A stretch of DNA of 24,790 nucleotides from a virus. Both the position numbers and the translations under genes were made by a program. The notes below the pieces were generated by a model, which searched no databases, was not told where the DNA came from, and saw nothing but the letters and a program-made list of their open reading frames with translations. Location: positions 1 through 24,790 of IMG/VR virus record IMGVR_UViG_3300021964_000499; one strand, written 5' to 3'. Below, in pieces: positions 1 to 24,775 of the stretch (positions are counted from its first letter, which is position 1; each line of letters starts with the position of its first letter).

Positions 1-30
1 ATGTTGACGCCTTCTAGGAGATTCTATTAA
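1..30 (+). CDS. 3' end of an upstream gene (partial)
   Basis: Frame 1 is open from the window edge and ends at a TAA at 28-30. The final A of that stop is also the first base of the next ATG (TAATG arrangement), which is the packing used throughout this genome. The last residues read MLTPSRRFY. The ATG at base 1 may be internal to a longer gene, so no function can be assigned. An AGGAG at 16-20 inside this stretch serves the next gene. Confidence 0.4.
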   Translation: MLTPSRRFY

Positions 31-755
31 TGGCTTACGCTCAGGGTAAATACGCACGAGCGATATGTGATCGATGTGGTTTTGATGTAGCTTATTTAGA
101 GCTTAAAAAAGAATGGACTGGATTTAAAGTTTGTAGTGAATGTTATGAACCTAAATCACCTCAGTTAGAACCATCTCATCAAGTTACTGATCCAGAGTCT
201 CTTCATCAACCAAGACCTACAATCTCAGCACCTACTACAGGACAAGGTCATGTTATAATTTCTAACCCGAAAAATTCACTGGGTGTAAGTTCTCCTATTA
301 TGTGGGCAGAAAATAGTGACACAATAGGCTCGATGTATAATATGTCTGCATTAAGCGGTAGTGTAGGAGAAGTAACTATATCAGGAGTAGCAGCAACACC
401 TAGTCCTAGCCCTAGCCCTAGTGTAACAACATACACAGTAACAGTAGCTAGTTATTTAGGAGCTAATTATTTTTACATAGATGGTTCTAGAGCTGCAGCT
501 TTAACAGTAACCGAAGGTCAAACATATAAGTTTGATCAGTCAGACAGTACTAACAGTAGTCATCCTTTAAGATTTTCCACCACTTCAAACGGTACACATG
601 GGGGTGGAACCGAATATACAACAGGTGTTACAACTAGTGGAACTCCAGGAAGTTCAGGAGCCTACACACAAATTGAAGTAGCATCTGGAGCACCAACTCT
701 ATACTATTATTGTACTAATCATAGTGGAATGGGAGGTATAATATATACATCATGA
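30..755 (+). CDS. zinc-ribbon protein with C-terminal cupredoxin-like domain, probable virion protein
   Basis: 241 residues with two putative metal sites. Near the N-terminus two CxxC pairs (C13/C16 and C35/C38) form a four-cysteine zinc-ribbon pattern. A Pro-Ser linker (about 124-131) leads to a beta-rich domain (about 134-241). It contains SHPLRF (H178) and then YYYCTNHSGMGG (C228, H231, M234). His followed by C-x2-H-x2-M is the ligand order of type 1 copper proteins, and the loop spacing equals that of amicyanin. Marine phage structural proteins carry this C-terminal module; I infer a virion or neck role. Copper binding is not demonstrated and the fold could be used without metal. The start is supported by AGGAG ten bases upstream. 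The stop overlaps the adaptor gene start (ATGA). Confidence 0.7.
   Translation: MAYAQGKYARAICDRCGFDVAYLELKKEWTGFKVCSECYEPKSPQLEPSHQVTDPESLHQPRPTISAPTTGQGHVIISNPKNSLGVSSPIMWAENSDTIGSMYNMSALSGSVGEVTISGVAATPSPSPSPSVTTYTVTVASYLGANYFYIDGSRAAALTVTEGQTYKFDQSDSTNSSHPLRFSTTSNGTHGGGTEYTTGVTTSGTPGSSGAYTQIEVASGAPTLYYYCTNHSGMGGIIYTS
399..422 (+). repeat. hexamer tandem repeat encoding a Pro-Ser linker
   Basis: Four copies of a CCTAG(C/T) hexamer encode four Pro-Ser dipeptides. They separate the N-terminal part of the first complete gene from its cupredoxin-like C-terminal domain. Such in-frame hexamers can change copy number without disrupting the protein. Confidence 0.7.
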
Positions 756-1402
756 GTTTTACATACACAACTTTAAAAACAGCTATACAAGATTACTTAG
801 AAAGTTCAGAGTCTAGTTTTGTAACTAACCTACCTACGTTTATTACAACAGCAGAAGAACGTATATTTAAAAATGTACAGTTAGATGATTTTAGAAAAAA
901 TCAAGTTGGAAACCTTACATCTTCAGGAACTTATTTAGAAACACCTACTGATTACCTAGCACCTTTTAGTTTAGCTGTTATAGATAGCAGCAGTAACTAT
1001 AACTACCTACTATTAAAACAAGTTTCTTTCATTAGGGATTTTACTCCTAATGCATCCACAACAGGACTACCAAAATATTACGCAGAATTTGACGACAATA
1101 CTTTTATAGTCGCACCTACCCCAGATTCAACCTACGAGGTTGAACTGCATTACTACTATAGACCAGCATCACTCACTACTACTACAGGCAGTGAAACAAC
1201 ATGGCTGTCTAAAAATGCTCCTAATGCTATTTTATATGGCAGTTTAGTCGAAGCATGCACGTATCTCAAAAATTATGAAGCAATACCAGCATACGAATCT
1301 AAGTTTCAAGAGGCTTTATTAGGATTAAAAAATCTTGGTGAAGCTAAATCAACTAGAGACCAATACAGGTACGATGAAATAAGGAGAGAACCACAAGCAT
1401 GA
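752..1402 (+). CDS. head-tail adaptor protein, SU10-type family
   Basis: 216 residues. The N-terminal pattern (TLKTAIQDYLESSE, then a helix ending FITTAEERIFKN) followed by a beta-rich middle with YLETPTDYLAP and FIVAPTP is typical of the SU10-like adaptor family of podoviruses. These proteins form the ring under the portal to which the tail nozzle docks. The C-terminus is helical and charged, as in other adaptors. The gene starts in an ATGA overlap with its upstream neighbour and ends in another ATGA overlap with the next gene, implying translational coupling. Recognition rests on family resemblance read by eye; the exact family should be confirmed by profile search. Confidence 0.7.
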   Translation: MSFTYTTLKTAIQDYLESSESSFVTNLPTFITTAEERIFKNVQLDDFRKNQVGNLTSSGTYLETPTDYLAPFSLAVIDSSSNYNYLLLKQVSFIRDFTPNASTTGLPKYYAEFDDNTFIVAPTPDSTYEVELHYYYRPASLTTTTGSETTWLSKNAPNAILYGSLVEACTYLKNYEAIPAYESKFQEALLGLKNLGEAKSTRDQYRYDEIRREPQA

Positions 1403-2867: not shown

Positions 2868-3506
2868 ATGGCTATTGTTAACGGTTGGGGTAGAGGCACG
2901 TGGGGTCAACTCACATGGGGAGAACCTATACCACTTACACTTACTGCACCTTCAGCAGCAATATCTGCTCTCGGAACTGTAACACCAAAAGCAGCAGCAA
3001 CAATTACTCTTACAGGTTTAAGCGTAACTGCTACTAATGGTGGCGTAGCAGTAGAGGCAGGTGGTAAAATTGGAGTCAATGGTTTAGCAGGAACTTCTGC
3101 TTTAGGAACAGCAACCACAGTTTCAAACAACACTTTAAATGTTTCAGGTTTAGCAGGAACTTCTGCTTTAGGAACAGCTACAACTGATGCAGAAGCCAAT
3201 GTAAGTCCTTCAGGTTTAGGAGCTACTGGTGGAGTAGGTTCTTTAACTGTTACAGGAAAAGCTATTCAAACTCCAACAGGACAAGCTGGAACATCAGCTT
3301 TAGGTACTGCAACTACTCAAACTGATAATAGATTTGTGATAAATGTATTTGGTAATACTGTTGGATTGGTTGGAGATCCAACTTTTATTATTACAGCTAA
3401 TGTTACATTAACAGGTGTATCAGCTACAGGAGTAGTAAGTACACTTAATATTTGGTCGCCTGTTAAGGATGACCAAACAGCAAACTGGAGAGAAATTGCA
3501 GCATAA
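2868..3506 (+). CDS. Gly/Ala/Thr-rich repeat protein with N-terminal GWG motif, probable virion surface protein
   Basis: 212 residues. The N-terminus carries GWGRGTWGQLTWG (residues 6-18), a Trp-Gly pattern typical of marine phage surface proteins. The rest is a low-complexity array of Gly, Ala, Thr and Leu. GLAGTSALGTATT appears twice perfectly with 22-residue spacing, and a variant (GQAGTSALGTATT) occurs later. The C-terminus ends in a distinct segment with WSPVKDDQTANWREI. The repeats suggest an extended beta structure, such as a decoration or fibre-base protein. No strong ribosome-binding site is visible in front of the ATG, so translation may be coupled to the upstream gene, whose stop is six bases away. 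Function unknown. Confidence 0.6.
   Translation: MAIVNGWGRGTWGQLTWGEPIPLTLTAPSAAISALGTVTPKAAATITLTGLSVTATNGGVAVEAGGKIGVNGLAGTSALGTATTVSNNTLNVSGLAGTSALGTATTDAEANVSPSGLGATGGVGSLTVTGKAIQTPTGQAGTSALGTATTQTDNRFVINVFGNTVGLVGDPTFIITANVTLTGVSATGVVSTLNIWSPVKDDQTANWREIAA
3081..3316 (+). repeat. in-frame direct repeats inside the GWG repeat protein
   Basis: A 32-base unit at 3081-3112 is repeated without change at 3147-3178, 66 bases later (22 codons). A diverged third copy lies around 3282-3316. The first two being identical at the DNA level, including synonymous positions, points to recent duplication or recombination between copies. Confidence 0.75.
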
Positions 3507-7746: not shown

Positions 7747-7782
7747 TATATTCTCACATGATATAATTCATATGTGAATATA
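7747..7782 (+). promoter_or_regulatory. -10 box inside a hairpin overlapping a GTG start
   Basis: TATAAT, a perfect -10 consensus, lies at 7762-7767. It sits in the loop of an 11-bp inverted repeat: TATATT + CACAT (7747-7752, 7755-7759, with a 2-base bulge) pairs with ATGTG + AATATA (7772-7776, 7777-7782). The predicted transcription start falls at or next to the GTG start codon at 7774, and no ribosome-binding site precedes that codon. The arrangement is compatible with leaderless expression, an operator, or an mRNA hairpin. No good -35 box is present. Confidence 0.35.
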
Positions 7783-8853
7783 GATTTAAAAAAGTTTTTA
7801 TTAGTAGCTCCTTTATTTTTTTCGCTACACGCTGTTAGTGATCAAACAGGCACCTGTACTTCGGGTACTCAGTATTGTGAAGACAATGGTTTGACTACTA
7901 TTAATACTACGGTGACTACAAATACCAACACAAACAACAACACAAACAACAACACCAACAGCAATACTAATGTTAACACAAACACCAACACAAATAATAG
8001 CACGAATACGAATAACTCCACGAACACGAACACGAATAATAACATTTCTACAAATGTTAATACCAGTAATAATACCAATACTAATAATTCTGTAAGTGTT
8101 AATACAAACAACAATAATAACACTTCAACCTCTACATCAAACTCTACTGTAAACTCAACGGTAAATCAAAACGTTAATAACAATAGTAATTCTACTAGTA
8201 ACAATACAAATACTAACAACAACACTAATGTCAATCAATCTACTTCGGATTCTAATGTTACTACTGATAATACTAATACCAATAATAACAACACACAGTC
8301 TAATAACACTAATAGAAACATTAACGAGTCCAACTCTACTCAAACCATAAATCAAAATATAAAAAGTGAGGCACCACCAGCCTCTGCTATTGCTCCTTCT
8401 ATAATGAGTTATTCACAAGACTTATGTACTACTGGTGTAAGTGGAGCTTTTCAAGGTCAAGTATTTGGTTTTTCTGGTGGTAAAACAGTAACAGATAAAA
8501 ACTGTGAAAGGCTCAAACTTTCTAAATATTTATATGATATGGGTATGAAAGTAGCCTCAGTTAGTTTGTTATGTCAGGATGAAAGAGTTTTCAAAGCTAT
8601 GAAAATGGCAGGCACACCTTGTCCATACGAAGGTAAGATAGGTAAAGAAGCTTCAGCAGAGTGGGCTAAAAACCAATCTAAAAGACCTGATGTAGAAGAT
8701 GCTGAAAAAGAGTTCATTACTAAATGTACACACGAAGCTAATCCAAATAGATCTAAAATAAATAAAGATGTTGTAGGATTAGTTAAAAAAACTTACACAA
8801 GAAAAACTAAAACTGACAAACAATGCAAAAAAGAATTTTATGCTACGCAGTAG
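7774..8853 (+). CDS. exported Asn/Thr-rich protein with conserved six-cysteine C-terminal domain
   Basis: 359 residues. The start is a GTG and no other start codon would retain the signal peptide (MNIDLKKFLLVAPLFFSLHA, likely cut after residue 20). Residues about 41-196 consist almost only of Asn and Thr with some Ser and Val. The C-terminal domain (about 207-359) is globular: IMSYSQDLC, then CERLKLSKYLYDMGMKVA, then QDERVFKAMKMAGTPCPYEG, with cysteines at 218, 244, 267, 283, 318 and 351, suiting disulphides outside the cytoplasm. I recognise this C-terminal family from marine phage genomes, where its function is unknown. The last 31 bases overlap the next gene, whose product is also exported, so the two are probably expressed together. 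Confidence 0.65.
   Translation: MNIDLKKFLLVAPLFFSLHAVSDQTGTCTSGTQYCEDNGLTTINTTVTTNTNTNNNTNNNTNSNTNVNTNTNTNNSTNTNNSTNTNTNNNISTNVNTSNNTNTNNSVSVNTNNNNNTSTSTSNSTVNSTVNQNVNNNSNSTSNNTNTNNNTNVNQSTSDSNVTTDNTNTNNNNTQSNNTNRNINESNSTQTINQNIKSEAPPASAIAPSIMSYSQDLCTTGVSGAFQGQVFGFSGGKTVTDKNCERLKLSKYLYDMGMKVASVSLLCQDERVFKAMKMAGTPCPYEGKIGKEASAEWAKNQSKRPDVEDAEKEFITKCTHEANPNRSKINKDVVGLVKKTYTRKTKTDKQCKKEFYATQ
7894..8361 (+). repeat. low-complexity AAC/ACN-type tract coding for Asn/Thr
   Basis: About 470 bases of AAY and ACN codons, with few G on the plus strand, code for a chain of Asn and Thr. Copies are not uniform (AAC, AAT, ACA, ACC, ACG, ACT are mixed), so selection acts on the amino-acid composition rather than this being a simple DNA slip. 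The tract gives spurious Leu/Val-rich frames on the other strand. Confidence 0.8.
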
Positions 8854-10973
8854 CTTGTTTGCTTAGTGTAAATGTTTTTAGTCAGTACATATACGAAAGT
8901 AATCAATCTTTAATAGATTTAACTAATCAATCAAACACTACTAACCTTAACGCAGGAGACGATCAAGTATCTGCAGCTTTTAACTTAGGTTTCACTTTTG
9001 ATTTTTATGGTCAGGCTTTTACACAAGGCAGAATAGCCACGAACGGTTGTCTTCATTTTAAAACTTCTGGAGCATTTTGTAATGATTATACACCTGATCC
9101 TTTAGCTAATCAATACACTTACACCTTACTACCTTTTTGGACTGACCTTATAAGAGATAATGGTTCAAGTATGTTAGCTAAGAGTTTTAGTGACAAAACT
9201 GTGTTTGGTTGGTACAATATGCGGGAATACAATCGTGCGTCTGACAATAGTTTTGAAGTCATACTGTGGACTAACGATACCTTTGAGTATAGATACGGTG
9301 CATTAAATATAATTAATCACGATGTTTTTATTGGTGAAATAGGTAATGATAGCTCTGAAGTTTATACATACTTATATCACGATGAATGTAACACAGGCAC
9401 AACTAACTCTAGTAGCTGTGTAAATACAAACTGGAACAGTACTGACAAAAATCAAAACTTAGAAAATGGTGGTTCTTTGTATGGTACTGGGAGCGGTAAT
9501 GGTATTGACTGTAGCAACCCTTTAAATAATTCAAGTTGTAGTGGTTATTCAAGTGCTTTATTAACACAACAATGTAATATAAGCTCTCTTTATAGTGAGT
9601 CCTGTCCTTTGTACTGGGAAGCATATGATGATCAACAATGTGACTTAGATCCACAATACGGACCATTTTGTCAAGGGTACAGACAAGAACAAGATATAGG
9701 TTATTTTCAAGAAGAAGAACAGTTTGATTATGGTTACGAGGAAGAAGAACAATTTGGGTACGAAGAAGAACCAATGTTTGAAGAATTTGTATTTGAATTT
9801 GAAGAGCAAAGGTTTGAAGAGCCAGAGTTTATTTTTGAAGAAGAAATAATTTTTGAACAGGTATTTTCTCAAGAAGAATATTACGAGCCTTTTGAACCGA
9901 CGCATGACTTACCTATGCATGAAGAAGAAATTTTTATGCCGATAGAAGAGTTATTGATTGATGAGTTTGTCTTTCAAGAAACATTTTTAGTAGAAGATTA
10001 CGCAGAACCAAACACGTTTATAGAATTAGAAACTATTGAAGAACTGGAAGAATGGTTTGAGGAAGAGACAAGGATGGAAGATGAACTTGCAGATCTTGAT
10101 GATCCAGAAGAAGAGTTTATAGAAGAAATATTTGAAGAGGAAGCTGTTGAGGAAGTCTTTGAAGCCATAGAAGAACGCATGGCTGAGGCTGAAGTAGAAG
10201 AAGAACGTATAGAAAGAGAAGAAGTAACAGAAGAAAAGTTTCAAGAAGAATTTCAAATAACTGAAAGAGAAAATATAAAAGGAGAAAGCTCTATTAGTAA
10301 AGCAACTGCTTTACGTGTGGTTGCTTCTACAATAATAACCGCAAATCAAAGTGTTAGTGGTACTAACTCTGGTAATTCTGTTCACGCTACAGGCAATAGT
10401 GTTGCTGCAGGTAACTCAGTAAGTTCTTCTTCTAACACAGGAATAAGTACGAGTAGTTCGCCAAGTATGTCAGATCAATTTGCTTCTTCCTCAGCTCAAA
10501 CAAATCAAACATTAACTATGAGTGTAACTGATACAGTATCCTCATCTACAAGTATTTCAAATATAGACACCGATGTAGAAACAACAGCAGAAGTACTTGT
10601 TGCTGATATACAAGTACAAAATGTTCAAAATGAAATCGTTACTGCTGTAGCAGATGTATCAACAACTTCGGAAGCAGATCAAATAGCAGATAAAATTATT
10701 GCTGCAAATATAGAAGCACAGCAAGAAGAAATAGAACAAAAACAACAAGATACAGGAGAGTACGGAGATGAATCTAAACTAATAGCTTTAATAGGCTATG
10801 TTCCTGACTTTAATCAATACCAAACAGTTTCTCTACCAGATCAAGAAAAATGGTATTCAGAACGTGTAATATATACTAAAATATTAAATGATAATACTCA
10901 AGCATTCTACGGTTTAGCAAGTCAAAGTATAGATACTTTATCTAAATTGAAAAAAATGCAACCTAATTTATAG
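8823..10973 (+). CDS. exported modular protein: NIDO-like domain, Cys repeats, Glu/Phe-rich region
   Basis: 716 residues, starting inside the previous gene (31-base overlap). A signal peptide (MQKRILCYAVACLLSVNVFS) is likely cut at about residue 20. Residues about 52-172 resemble a NIDO (nidogen-like) domain: LGFTFDFYGQ, IATNGCLHF, LLPFWTDLIRD and FEVILWTNDTFEYRYG. Cysteines 239, 251, 261, 273 and 283 define 22-residue repeats with a QQC signature. Residues about 293-483 are dominated by Glu with Phe and Tyr. A Ser/Thr/Asn-rich stretch (about 495-590) leads to a C-terminal segment (IGYVPDFNQYQTVSLPDQ, then WYSERVIYTKI) that looks conserved. Extracellular adhesion or envelope association is inferred from these parts; no catalytic motif is seen. 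Downstream genes are lysis genes. Confidence 0.65.
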   Translation: MQKRILCYAVACLLSVNVFSQYIYESNQSLIDLTNQSNTTNLNAGDDQVSAAFNLGFTFDFYGQAFTQGRIATNGCLHFKTSGAFCNDYTPDPLANQYTYTLLPFWTDLIRDNGSSMLAKSFSDKTVFGWYNMREYNRASDNSFEVILWTNDTFEYRYGALNIINHDVFIGEIGNDSSEVYTYLYHDECNTGTTNSSSCVNTNWNSTDKNQNLENGGSLYGTGSGNGIDCSNPLNNSSCSGYSSALLTQQCNISSLYSESCPLYWEAYDDQQCDLDPQYGPFCQGYRQEQDIGYFQEEEQFDYGYEEEEQFGYEEEPMFEEFVFEFEEQRFEEPEFIFEEEIIFEQVFSQEEYYEPFEPTHDLPMHEEEIFMPIEELLIDEFVFQETFLVEDYAEPNTFIELETIEELEEWFEEETRMEDELADLDDPEEEFIEEIFEEEAVEEVFEAIEERMAEAEVEEERIEREEVTEEKFQEEFQITERENIKGESSISKATALRVVASTIITANQSVSGTNSGNSVHATGNSVAAGNSVSSSSNTGISTSSSPSMSDQFASSSAQTNQTLTMSVTDTVSSSTSISNIDTDVETTAEVLVADIQVQNVQNEIVTAVADVSTTSEADQIADKIIAANIEAQQEEIEQKQQDTGEYGDESKLIALIGYVPDFNQYQTVSLPDQEKWYSERVIYTKILNDNTQAFYGLASQSIDTLSKLKKMQPNL
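9537..9671 (+). repeat. 22-residue cysteine repeats in the exported modular protein
   Basis: Cysteines alternate at spacings 12, 10, 12, 10. Two full units (CSGYSSALLTQQC with its tail, CPLYWEAYDDQQC with its tail) and the start of a third (CQGY) are seen. Tyr at position 4 of the unit and QQC at the second cysteine are constant. Confidence 0.65.
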
Positions 10974-21989: not shown

Positions 21990-23333
21990 ATGAGTATTTA
22001 CGATAGATTTAAAAACCAACCCCTAATGCGTATGCAAGACGGTGGAACACCAACAGATGCTGAAAACACAGAGACTGTTGATGTTGAAGTTGTTGGCATT
22101 CCTAAATATCCATACGGACATCCAAGTGAAGCGGTTGAAAACTTGCACGATAGAAGAAGAGACATAAATGAGAGTATTAAAAAGGGTTATTACAGAGGAG
22201 AGTTTCTAGATGATAATCCAAAAACTTTTAAGGCATTGCTTAATGAACTTAAGATGATTGATAAAGAATTGCAAATGACACAAGGCATGGGTGGAAATAC
22301 AAGAAGAATGAATGAAGCAAACCAAAGCATGGCAGATACACTTAAAAATTTGCGTGGATATGCAGACGGTGGTTCACCACTAACTAGAGAACAAGCTGCA
22401 GAAATACTTAATATGTCTAAAGAAGGCATTCCTATGTTTTCTGGTGACGGATCTTTTACTACGCCTAGTATAGATTTAGGTGGTGGTCTAGGAGCTATTC
22501 CTGGAGTTACTTTAAACTATAACGACATATTAGCTGGGTTAAAAGACCAAATGTTTGGTATACCAACCGTGTTTACAGATCCAGTAGAAGAGGAAATAGA
22601 AGATGAAATAAAAACTACAGCCCCAGTTATGCCTGTTGCTCCTGTTAAAGACCCAGTTGTAGAAGTAGTAAGTGAGGAAGTTGCTGAGGAAGTAGTTCCA
22701 TCGCCAACACCAGCACCAGCACCAGCACCAGCACCAGCTCCTCCAGTAGTAGATACATCTGGTATAGGTAGTTTACCTCAAGTTGTCCTTCCACCAACAC
22801 CAGCTGAAGATATGAATTTAATTACAGGTACTGATGCAGGTCTTACTGACGAAGAGATAAGTTCAGTTGCTAATCCAACGTTGACACCCACAACAGGTGC
22901 AGACTTAGCTAGATTAAATCAACAATACAATGACACATTTTTAAGATTTTTGGCTCAAGACCCAGCTGACGCACAAGCTACAGCACAAGCCAATGAACCT
23001 GTGTATAGTGCTACAAGCCCACAAGGAACACAGTCTGGTTTACAAGCAGGTGAATACATAAGTCGTTTTGCTCAACCTAATATTCAACAACCAATAGACT
23101 ACGGTTATGGGGCATCTAATAATTACACTATGCCAGCTAACGTTCAGTTTCAAATGGATAATGTTTTTGCAGACAACAGAAACAGAGATTATTTAAGGAA
23201 TCGATCAATTCAAAATTTAGATCCTTCTATAAGAAATAGCCAGTTGTACGGAGATTTATTATTCCCTGTCTTTGGTTCGGGAGTAACTTCTCTTGTCCCA
23301 CAACAAGCTGTTAATGAGTTATTTAAACGCTAG
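21990..23333 (+). CDS. virion-associated protein with DGG motifs and Pro-Ala linker
   Basis: 447 residues. Two short motifs, RMQDGGTP (14-21) and YADGGSPLTREQAAEIL (124-140), flank a helical, charged segment. A hinge rich in Val, Glu and Pro (about 200-240) ends in Pro-Ala repeats (about 239-251), followed by a Pro/Thr-rich part and a C-terminal region with NRNRDYLRNRSIQN. No enzyme signature is seen. The architecture suggests two structured parts joined by an extended linker. It is the last plus-strand gene, and its TAG stop shares the CTAG at 23330-23333 with the oppositely oriented helicase gene. Function unknown; an internal virion or accessory role is inferred from context. Confidence 0.55.
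   Translation: MSIYDRFKNQPLMRMQDGGTPTDAENTETVDVEVVGIPKYPYGHPSEAVENLHDRRRDINESIKKGYYRGEFLDDNPKTFKALLNELKMIDKELQMTQGMGGNTRRMNEANQSMADTLKNLRGYADGGSPLTREQAAEILNMSKEGIPMFSGDGSFTTPSIDLGGGLGAIPGVTLNYNDILAGLKDQMFGIPTVFTDPVEEEIEDEIKTTAPVMPVAPVKDPVVEVVSEEVAEEVVPSPTPAPAPAPAPAPPVVDTSGIGSLPQVVLPPTPAEDMNLITGTDAGLTDEEISSVANPTLTPTTGADLARLNQQYNDTFLRFLAQDPADAQATAQANEPVYSATSPQGTQSGLQAGEYISRFAQPNIQQPIDYGYGASNNYTMPANVQFQMDNVFADNRNRDYLRNRSIQNLDPSIRNSQLYGDLLFPVFGSGVTSLVPQQAVNELFKR
22708..22739 (+). repeat. CCAGCA-type hexamer tandem repeat
   Basis: About five copies of an ACCAGC hexamer encode a Pro-Ala run in the linker of the last plus-strand protein. It is a candidate for copy-number variation among relatives. 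Confidence 0.75.
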
Positions 23334-24775
23334 ACTAACCAGTCAGTAATACGATCTTCACCTAGAACTAAACTAGCAATAGATTGTTTCTTCCTTAATG
23401 CTTTTACTATTTTTTCATCTACTGTTTTTTCACAAACAATATCTATGTAAGTAACTTTATTAGTTTGACCTATACGATGAGCACGGTCTTCTGATTGTAG
23501 ACGTTTTTCTAAATCATAGTTGTTACTGTAATACACCACCGTACTAGCAGCAGTCAATGTTATACCGTAACCACCAGTCTGAGTATTACCTACAAAAAAT
23601 CTAAGAGGACTGTCTGGGTTTTGAAACTCTTCAATTACCCTTTCACGTTCTTCTTGTTCAACTCCACCGTAGTAAGTTCCTACTGAATTATTACCATAAA
23701 GTTCTTTTAAGGTTTTTTCTATACGTTGTATGTCATATCTGTAGTTTGCCCAAATAATCATCTTTCCATCAGTTTCTTCTATAATAGAGAGCAATTCTGG
23801 AAGCCTCTGAGAAGATATTTCGGTAGTAACTCCGTCATCGGTTACTGTGAATCCACATGAAATCTGATGCAAACGTATGATTTGCGTTATTACATGGTTT
23901 ATGGTTACAGTTTTAGAATTTTTTAAAAGTGTCACTGAAAAGTTTTGTAATTCTTTATATGCTTTAGCTTGATCAGGTGTCATTTGTATTTCTCTACGCA
24001 TATAAACTTTTTCAGGTAGATCTAAACAGTCTTTCTTTAAAACTCTATGGCTAAACTTTTCTAAAGTTTCATTAAGTTCTTCTAAATTTTTATATCCTGC
24101 AACAAACTTAAAAGTTCTACCGTGTCCACGTTTTTCTACTAAGTCTGCATATCTTGCACGGAAAGAATAAAAACTACTAAAGCCTAATATTGCTGGATCT
24201 AAAAACATACACTGACTATATAAATCTAGTGGACTTTTAGTGATAGGTGAACCTGTTAAGATTCTTTTGTAATGTGCATACTTACCTAACCTTACACAAT
24301 TAGCTGTGCGTTTTGCTTCAGGGTTTTTTATAGTTGTGCTTTCGTCGATTATAAACATAGTTTTATTATGTTGTATAAACCTACTAGCATATTGACAACC
24401 TTTTTTAGTACTAAAGGCATCTATATTCATAACAAGGATTTTTAGTTTATGGTCAAACTCAAAAAGTTTAGACATTTCTCTTTCAAATTTCTTAGTATGA
24501 TTACTTTGCCACTTTACTATGTCGTGTGTAACATGGTCTGGCATGTGTGATGGTATTTCTTTAGCTATCCAATTATTATAAACACCTTTAGGGGCTACAA
24601 TTAAAACATTATATACTTTAGCTTGACCATACAGATGTACAAAGTTATCTATAGCTACTTTAGATTTACCACAACCCATCTCCATAAAAAGAGCATACTC
24701 TTCTTTATCACAAGACTCAGTTAAGGCTTGGCGTTGATGATCATAAGGATCTGTCTTAAATATAAATTCTGTCAT
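23330..24775 (-). CDS. SNF2-family DEAD/DEAH-box helicase/translocase
   Basis: 481 residues on the minus strand, apparently complete (start codon at 24773-24775; GAG about five bases upstream, no strong site). ATPase landmarks in order: Walker A MEMGCGKS (31-38), Walker B DEST (144-147), TGSP (174-177), GGYGITLTAA (401-410) and QSEDRAHRIGQ (427-437). The last element is the SNF2 form of motif VI. Such phage-encoded SNF2-like proteins couple ATP hydrolysis to movement on double-stranded DNA and are thought to serve replication, recombination or counter-defence; which of these applies here is not visible. It is the only minus-strand gene and probably the last gene of an oppositely transcribed early/replication region beyond the right edge. 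Confidence 0.9.
   Translation of the reverse strand: MTEFIFKTDPYDHQRQALTESCDKEEYALFMEMGCGKSKVAIDNFVHLYGQAKVYNVLIVAPKGVYNNWIAKEIPSHMPDHVTHDIVKWQSNHTKKFEREMSKLFEFDHKLKILVMNIDAFSTKKGCQYASRFIQHNKTMFIIDESTTIKNPEAKRTANCVRLGKYAHYKRILTGSPITKSPLDLYSQCMFLDPAILGFSSFYSFRARYADLVEKRGHGRTFKFVAGYKNLEELNETLEKFSHRVLKKDCLDLPEKVYMRREIQMTPDQAKAYKELQNFSVTLLKNSKTVTINHVITQIIRLHQISCGFTVTDDGVTTEISSQRLPELLSIIEETDGKMIIWANYRYDIQRIEKTLKELYGNNSVGTYYGGVEQEERERVIEEFQNPDSPLRFFVGNTQTGGYGITLTAASTVVYYSNNYDLEKRLQSEDRAHRIGQTNKVTYIDIVCEKTVDEKIVKALRKKQSIASLVLGEDRITDWLV

Follow-up and report, generated by a model that had tools for sequence, protein, structure and literature searches.

Does a marine phage display a type 1 copper domain on its particle, and does a zinc ribbon on the same chain work together with it? 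The question is raised by a 241-residue protein encoded on the plus strand at positions 30–755 of the window, the whole 24,790-base virus record (IMG/VR) analyzed here. Based on the open reading frame, PHROG matches, and flanking adaptor genes, we read this gene as encoding a probable virion neck protein, composed of an N-terminal anchor, a Pro/Ser linker, and a C-terminal cupredoxin. The anchor domain (about 69 residues; 30–236, plus strand) was delimited by its match to phrog_28581 and an AlphaFold2 (AF2) model, and contains a CxxC-x18-CxxC pattern formed by C13, C16, C35, and C38 (nucleotides 66–68, 75–77, 132–134, and 141–143). The Pro/Ser-rich spacer ATPSPSPSPSVT was read directly at 393–428, and sequence comparison showed that its length differs among relatives (PSPSPTPAPTP...). 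The cupredoxin domain (residues 134–241, 108 residues), as defined by AF2, VIA-align, and hhalign, occupies 429–752; the interval 435–755, to which the original prediction had assigned the copper site, corresponds to this domain and the stop codon. The protein matches PHROG tail-fiber, baseplate, and structural families, and its label as a structural protein is based on these matches and the gene context.

The ORF translation contains both SHPLRF and YYYCTNHSGMGG, as predicted, and confirmed the series H178...C228-x2-H231-x2-M234. The first copper-type ligand, H178, is encoded at 561–563, and the ligand loop, with its amicyanin-type spacing, at 711–731 (C228, 711–713; H231, 720–722; M234, 729–731), all on the plus strand. 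The two N-terminal Cys pairs, C13/C16 and C35/C38, were likewise found in the translation as claimed. The pattern H-x(25–75)-C-x2-H-x2-M occurs once in the window, as compared with an average of 0.017 in shuffled ORF sets, and arose in 32 of 20,000 shuffles of the 241-residue protein. Judged from the family alignment, the top conservation of the ligand residues is far stronger support for the site than this chance figure.

To describe this conservation, we used 203 unique copies of the domain from IMG/VR and isolated phages, gathered by iterative HMM searches. The full ligand set was present in 178 copies, with 168 reading HCHM and 10 reading HCHQ. Both His and the Cys, H178 included, were kept in all 178, and only the axial position varied between Met and Gln. 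In stellacyanin, Gln naturally serves as the axial ligand. The other 25 copies lack the Cys-His-Met loop, and 24 of them have no residue aligned at the Cys or the second His; some of the 25 may be alignments that end ahead of the loop, so the number of true losses is uncertain. The first His is also missing in 23 of those 24, and one of the 25 reads HSD-. Among 24 ligand-bearing copies sharing less than 70% identity, H178, C228, H231, Y226, and G152 were invariant, and M234 was conserved at 96%. The free loss of Cys or His, which had been named as the observation that would speak against the site, was not seen across the 203 aligned copies. Each cupredoxin domain contains one Cys. We also noted cyanophage structural proteins that carry two or three cupredoxin-like copies (L102–L175, e.g., L105, L097, and L171); these copies are of the standard type, of a type with Gln in place of Met (CHYHTGQ), or of a type without the four ligands.

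Structure prediction of residues 134–241, which had been proposed as a check, gave a confident AF2 model (pLDDT 93.0, pTM 0.84; alignment of 30 viral sequences), in which the predicted strand order places the ligands at the cupredoxin positions. A Foldseek search of this model against the PDB yielded a best E-value of only about 0.015, with cupredoxins mixed with Ig domains and many Ig chains of similar E-value among the best rows. Foldseek alone was ambiguous between the two folds, and the choice was settled by VIA-align and profile alignment. When VIA-align was run on the best 1000 Foldseek chains, the best 50 entries listed were all cupredoxins or multicopper oxidases. The top matches were the cupredoxin domain of the three-domain nitrite reductase 2dv6 (Z 8.3, 93 residues, 2.5 Å) and rusticyanin 2cal (Z 7.7, 103 residues, 3.1 Å), followed by the Nitrosopumilus purple cupredoxin (Z 7.3) and, in the plastocyanin/azurin range of Z 6–6.5, azurin (Z 6.5) and plastocyanin (Z 6.3); a Z of about 8 is close to the level that the tool calls common and on its own would not decide. 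The two best structural matches share only 15–19% identity with the phage domain and come from a different biological setting. The AF2 model, the moderate VIA-align Z, and an independent profile match all indicate a Greek-key beta-sandwich of cupredoxin topology.

Pfam and NCBIfam searches with the window protein matched no cupredoxin model. A nucleoporin match in the single-sequence PDB search was discarded as false, as it arises through the PSPSP linker. The link to known cupredoxins was obtained at the profile level, by comparing the viral family profile with six cupredoxin domains from bacteria, SAR11 and SAR86 proteins among them. This hhalign comparison gave P 7e-5 and a score of 30.0 with H, C, H, and M all in register, as compared with 16.2 for the best of 200 column-shuffled decoys and 8.4 for the reversed profile. 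The match was weak when a small alignment was used (P 0.008) and improved to the above value with the full family. In a PDB-sequence search, the family profile weakly matched amicyanin entries, with YFCTPHPFMRGKV aligned to YYYCTNHSGMGGTI. Furthermore, domain 2 of a cyanophage P-HM1 protein scores 36 bits against a family HMM built without the P-HM1 locus and matches the NCBIfam plastocyanin model (E 5.5e-4); its match to PF00127 (E 9e-4, 20.0 bits) falls under the cut-off of 21.2. This domain thus appears, by sequence, to be a bridge from the viral family to the plastocyanin models.

Because of the conservation, the predicted fold, the profile match, and the P-HM1 bridge, we accept the domain as a predicted member of the cupredoxin superfamily. 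Membership in PF00127 (Copper-bind) is not claimed, as the window protein has no match and the P-HM1 relative scores under the curated cut-off. The predicted fold, the invariance of the ligands, and the profile alignment support the original prediction of a cupredoxin-like copper site with amicyanin spacing. Like the amicyanin/plastocyanin cupredoxins (PF00127; TIGR02657, TIGR02656), the phage domain is a predicted beta-sandwich with an upstream His and a C-x2-H-x2-M loop, preceded by YxC and followed by G, and the loop spacing is identical to that of amicyanin. In contrast to these secreted single-domain electron carriers, it is fused to virion proteins, follows its first His ligand with Pro instead of the customary Asn (HP for HN), and scores under the curated cut-offs. 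The family alignment is also weakly similar to the plant family PF25489 (At5g54830-like; E about 0.002–0.02), which might represent distant eukaryotic relatives.

The N-terminal module was modeled with lower confidence (pLDDT 77.6, pTM 0.47). Its Foldseek rows were largely zinc-finger proteins, with a weak best E of 0.46, and its matches to Pfam zinc-ribbon families were weak as well (best E about 0.006). Among 64 unique homologues of residues 1–60, all four Cys were present in 38, none in 22, one in 3, and three in 1. The corresponding position patterns were CCCC (38), SSGE (21, the commonest replacement), CSGQ (3), CCCD (1), and SSHE (1). This all-or-none pattern fits a putative zinc site that is retained or dropped as a unit. 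The quartet is lost or altered in 26 of the 64 homologues (about 40%), and along the tree the full set changes no fewer than 3 to 5 times, while the copper-type set is kept in 63 of the same 64 proteins. Regarding the claimed zinc ribbon, the two CxxC knuckles are real and follow the all-or-none pattern, but they are not conserved as a family feature. A single functional unit of zinc and copper modules was rejected, since the Cys quartet is repeatedly lost while the copper-type set stays; the loss of the quartet in about 40% of the homologues argues against a functional tie between the two modules. By sequence comparison, the N-terminal module is a separate anchor, independent of the copper-type domain.

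Where on the particle would this protein reside? The next gene (752–1402, plus strand), which at its start shares ATGA with the 3' end of the cupredoxin gene, encodes an SU10-type adaptor (PF24175, E 3.7e-28). An adaptor-like gene was found directly upstream in 72 of 76 loci with enough flank and directly downstream in 75 of 75. In locus L005, the upstream gene also matches the SU10_adaptor family (E 9.6e-14), and in the relative L036 the major capsid gene lies farther upstream. The 241-residue protein itself has no PF24175 match; in nearly every homologue its gene is flanked on both sides by SU10-adaptor-like genes, and the protein is an accessory beside the adaptors rather than an adaptor. 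In phage 023Pt_psg01 (L088:2989–4086), the upstream, portal-side adaptor carries the cupredoxin as an N-terminal fusion; the remainder of this adaptor shares 35% identity with the L005 adaptor, and the adjoining anchor protein has no cupredoxin. Such an arrangement would represent domain transfer between neighboring neck genes. In SU10, the adaptor ring joins the portal and the nozzle and bears the long tail fibers (PMC9509320). From the flanking adaptor genes and the fusion to the upstream adaptor in 023Pt_psg01, we infer that the cupredoxin probably decorates the virion neck.

The domain is not confined to this locus. At least 598 relatives were found in IMG/VR, annotated as 'tail fiber', 'structural', or 'hypothetical', and the record of one relative names an Ig protein. 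Phages of Pelagibacter, Synechococcus, and Prochlorococcus carry the domain on annotated tail fibers and virion structural proteins; cultured carriers include the Pelagibacter phages HTVC028P and EXVC032P, cyanophage S-TIM5, and Synechococcus phage S-H9-2. Two SAR86 proteins also carry it, one with a lipobox-like N-terminus (contig L185:2621–4333) and one a very large repeat protein of more than 1,500 residues (L186:1–4509); these copies may reflect use outside viruses or host–phage exchange. The same anchor gene occurs in CRP-902, HTVC027P, HTVC023P, DSL-LC04, and Pag-Yong1, where it has a different tail or no tail at all, and the sequence around it gave no match to the family. Because such same-anchor phages have no family match nearby, the domain is not essential, and we read it as an accessory, displayed part. 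In L180 and L181, it lies at the N-terminus of long GWG/TWG-repeat proteins resembling the product of the window gene at 2868–3506, and a gene of this kind would be a third neighboring gene able to carry the domain. A copy on a repeat protein in L184, a single-cell assembly whose record is titled Epulopiscium SCG, could represent viral contamination or an unrelated contig.

Taken from sequence and modeled structure, we read the domain as a modular, surface-displayed, predicted type 1 copper domain. The reading that we favor, as reasonably probable, is that the protein decorates the neck of a short-tailed marine phage as a modular part with a metal-locked role in surface display or adhesion, and its putative function is most likely that of a metal-locked adhesin. 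The N-terminal domain, zinc-ribbon-like in the window phage, would dock the protein at the portal/adaptor region, and the Pro/Ser spacer would hold the C-terminal cupredoxin, with its type 1 ligand set of His, Cys, His, and Met, outward. Copper is the metal that this ligand set predicts. The phage assembly site, a cytoplasm with almost no free copper, counts against the copper reading. For the same reason, loading after lysis is plausible: the domain could fold in the host cytoplasm without metal or with another metal, and would take up copper tightly in seawater. The metal would then lock the disulfide-free beta-sandwich into a robust module for display or adhesion, which would serve much as Ig-like domains do in other phages and be swapped among neck proteins, tail fibers, and host surface proteins.

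The main rival to this metal-locked adhesin with predicted copper is zinc occupancy, in which a cupredoxin-fold adhesin holds zinc, other metals, or a mixture for stability only, and no copper or blue-copper role exists in the phage life cycle. We regard it as somewhat unlikely. Assembly in a copper-poor cytoplasm would favor it, recombinant cupredoxins do take up zinc in the cytoplasm, no electron-transfer partner is visible in the window, and the conservation of the site itself suits this rival as well. Zinc would not need Met, however, and the near-invariant Met, together with the Met-to-Gln exchange, is how the axial ligand of a type 1 copper site is expected to vary. We hold it improbable that the domain is a metal-free Ig-like adhesion domain, with packing or ligand binding as the reason why His, Cys, His, and Met are retained. 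The similar Foldseek E-values of Ig folds and the one record naming an Ig protein speak for this possibility, and Ig-like domains, promiscuous beta-sandwich surface domains, are common on the virions of tailed phages. They are likewise surface beta-sandwiches, but have no metal site and an unrelated ligand set. The exclusive presence of cupredoxin-type folds among the best 50 VIA-align entries, the four ligands in register in the profile match, and the retention of the ligand set or absence of the loop as a whole argue against an Ig identity, and the single Cys per domain excludes an Ig disulfide.

A copper site serving redox or copper sensing, or host-surface electron transfer, and triggering adsorption or ejection, is very improbable in our judgment. 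Type 1 sites of known cupredoxins are redox active. The probable position of the protein at the neck, beside adaptors that in SU10 anchor the long tail fibers (PMC9509320), would also suit such a trigger. Against it, we saw no gene for a redox partner, the domain occurs on unrelated virion and cell-surface proteins, other phages with the same anchor lack the domain around it, and the presence of the zinc module varies independently; no evidence was found for the redox or copper sensor that had been proposed. It is also doubtful, if less so, that marine virions bear functional type 1 copper at necks and fibers that is needed for host attachment, possibly via copper-scavenging surface proteins. 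This would be the copper counterpart of the iron 'Ferrojan horse', and if it held, phages would also constitute a marine pool of strongly complexed copper.

The fold and the site are known, and the virion setting appears to be new within the literature covered: our search, whose coverage missed most subscription journals, returned no paper on a cupredoxin domain in phage virions. Cyanophages encode a cupredoxin, the plastocyanin PetE (PMC3037559). PetE, acquired from the host, is a stand-alone gene for a soluble metabolic protein, whereas the present domain is part of structural proteins, and its fusion to virion modules rules out identity with the host metabolic plastocyanin. A phage tail fiber protein, T4 gp37, binds iron at HxH sites, the subject of the Ferrojan horse hypothesis (PMC11705849). 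In both cases the metal is bound by a phage tail protein, or predicted to be; the HxH sites hold octahedral iron between fiber chains, whereas the present site is a predicted intra-domain copper site. The domain appears as a recurrent building block of the particles of phages whose hosts are dominant marine bacteria, among them SAR11, Synechococcus, and Prochlorococcus. Should the sites be occupied, virus particles would contain copper in a defined amount, attachment might rely on the chemistry of copper, and the metal content of phages would be measurable with isolates already cultured. Even with a purely structural metal, a widespread unannotated domain would be explained and named.

Elsewhere in the window, the structural block includes a gene for a 246-residue protein (1399–2139) that is conserved in relatives and matches neither Pfam nor PHROG. 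Positions 7774–10973 encode an Asn/Thr-repeat protein and, after it, a 716-residue acidic, Glu-rich protein, and an SNF2-type helicase (PF00176) is encoded at 23330–24775 on the minus strand, opposite to the structural genes.
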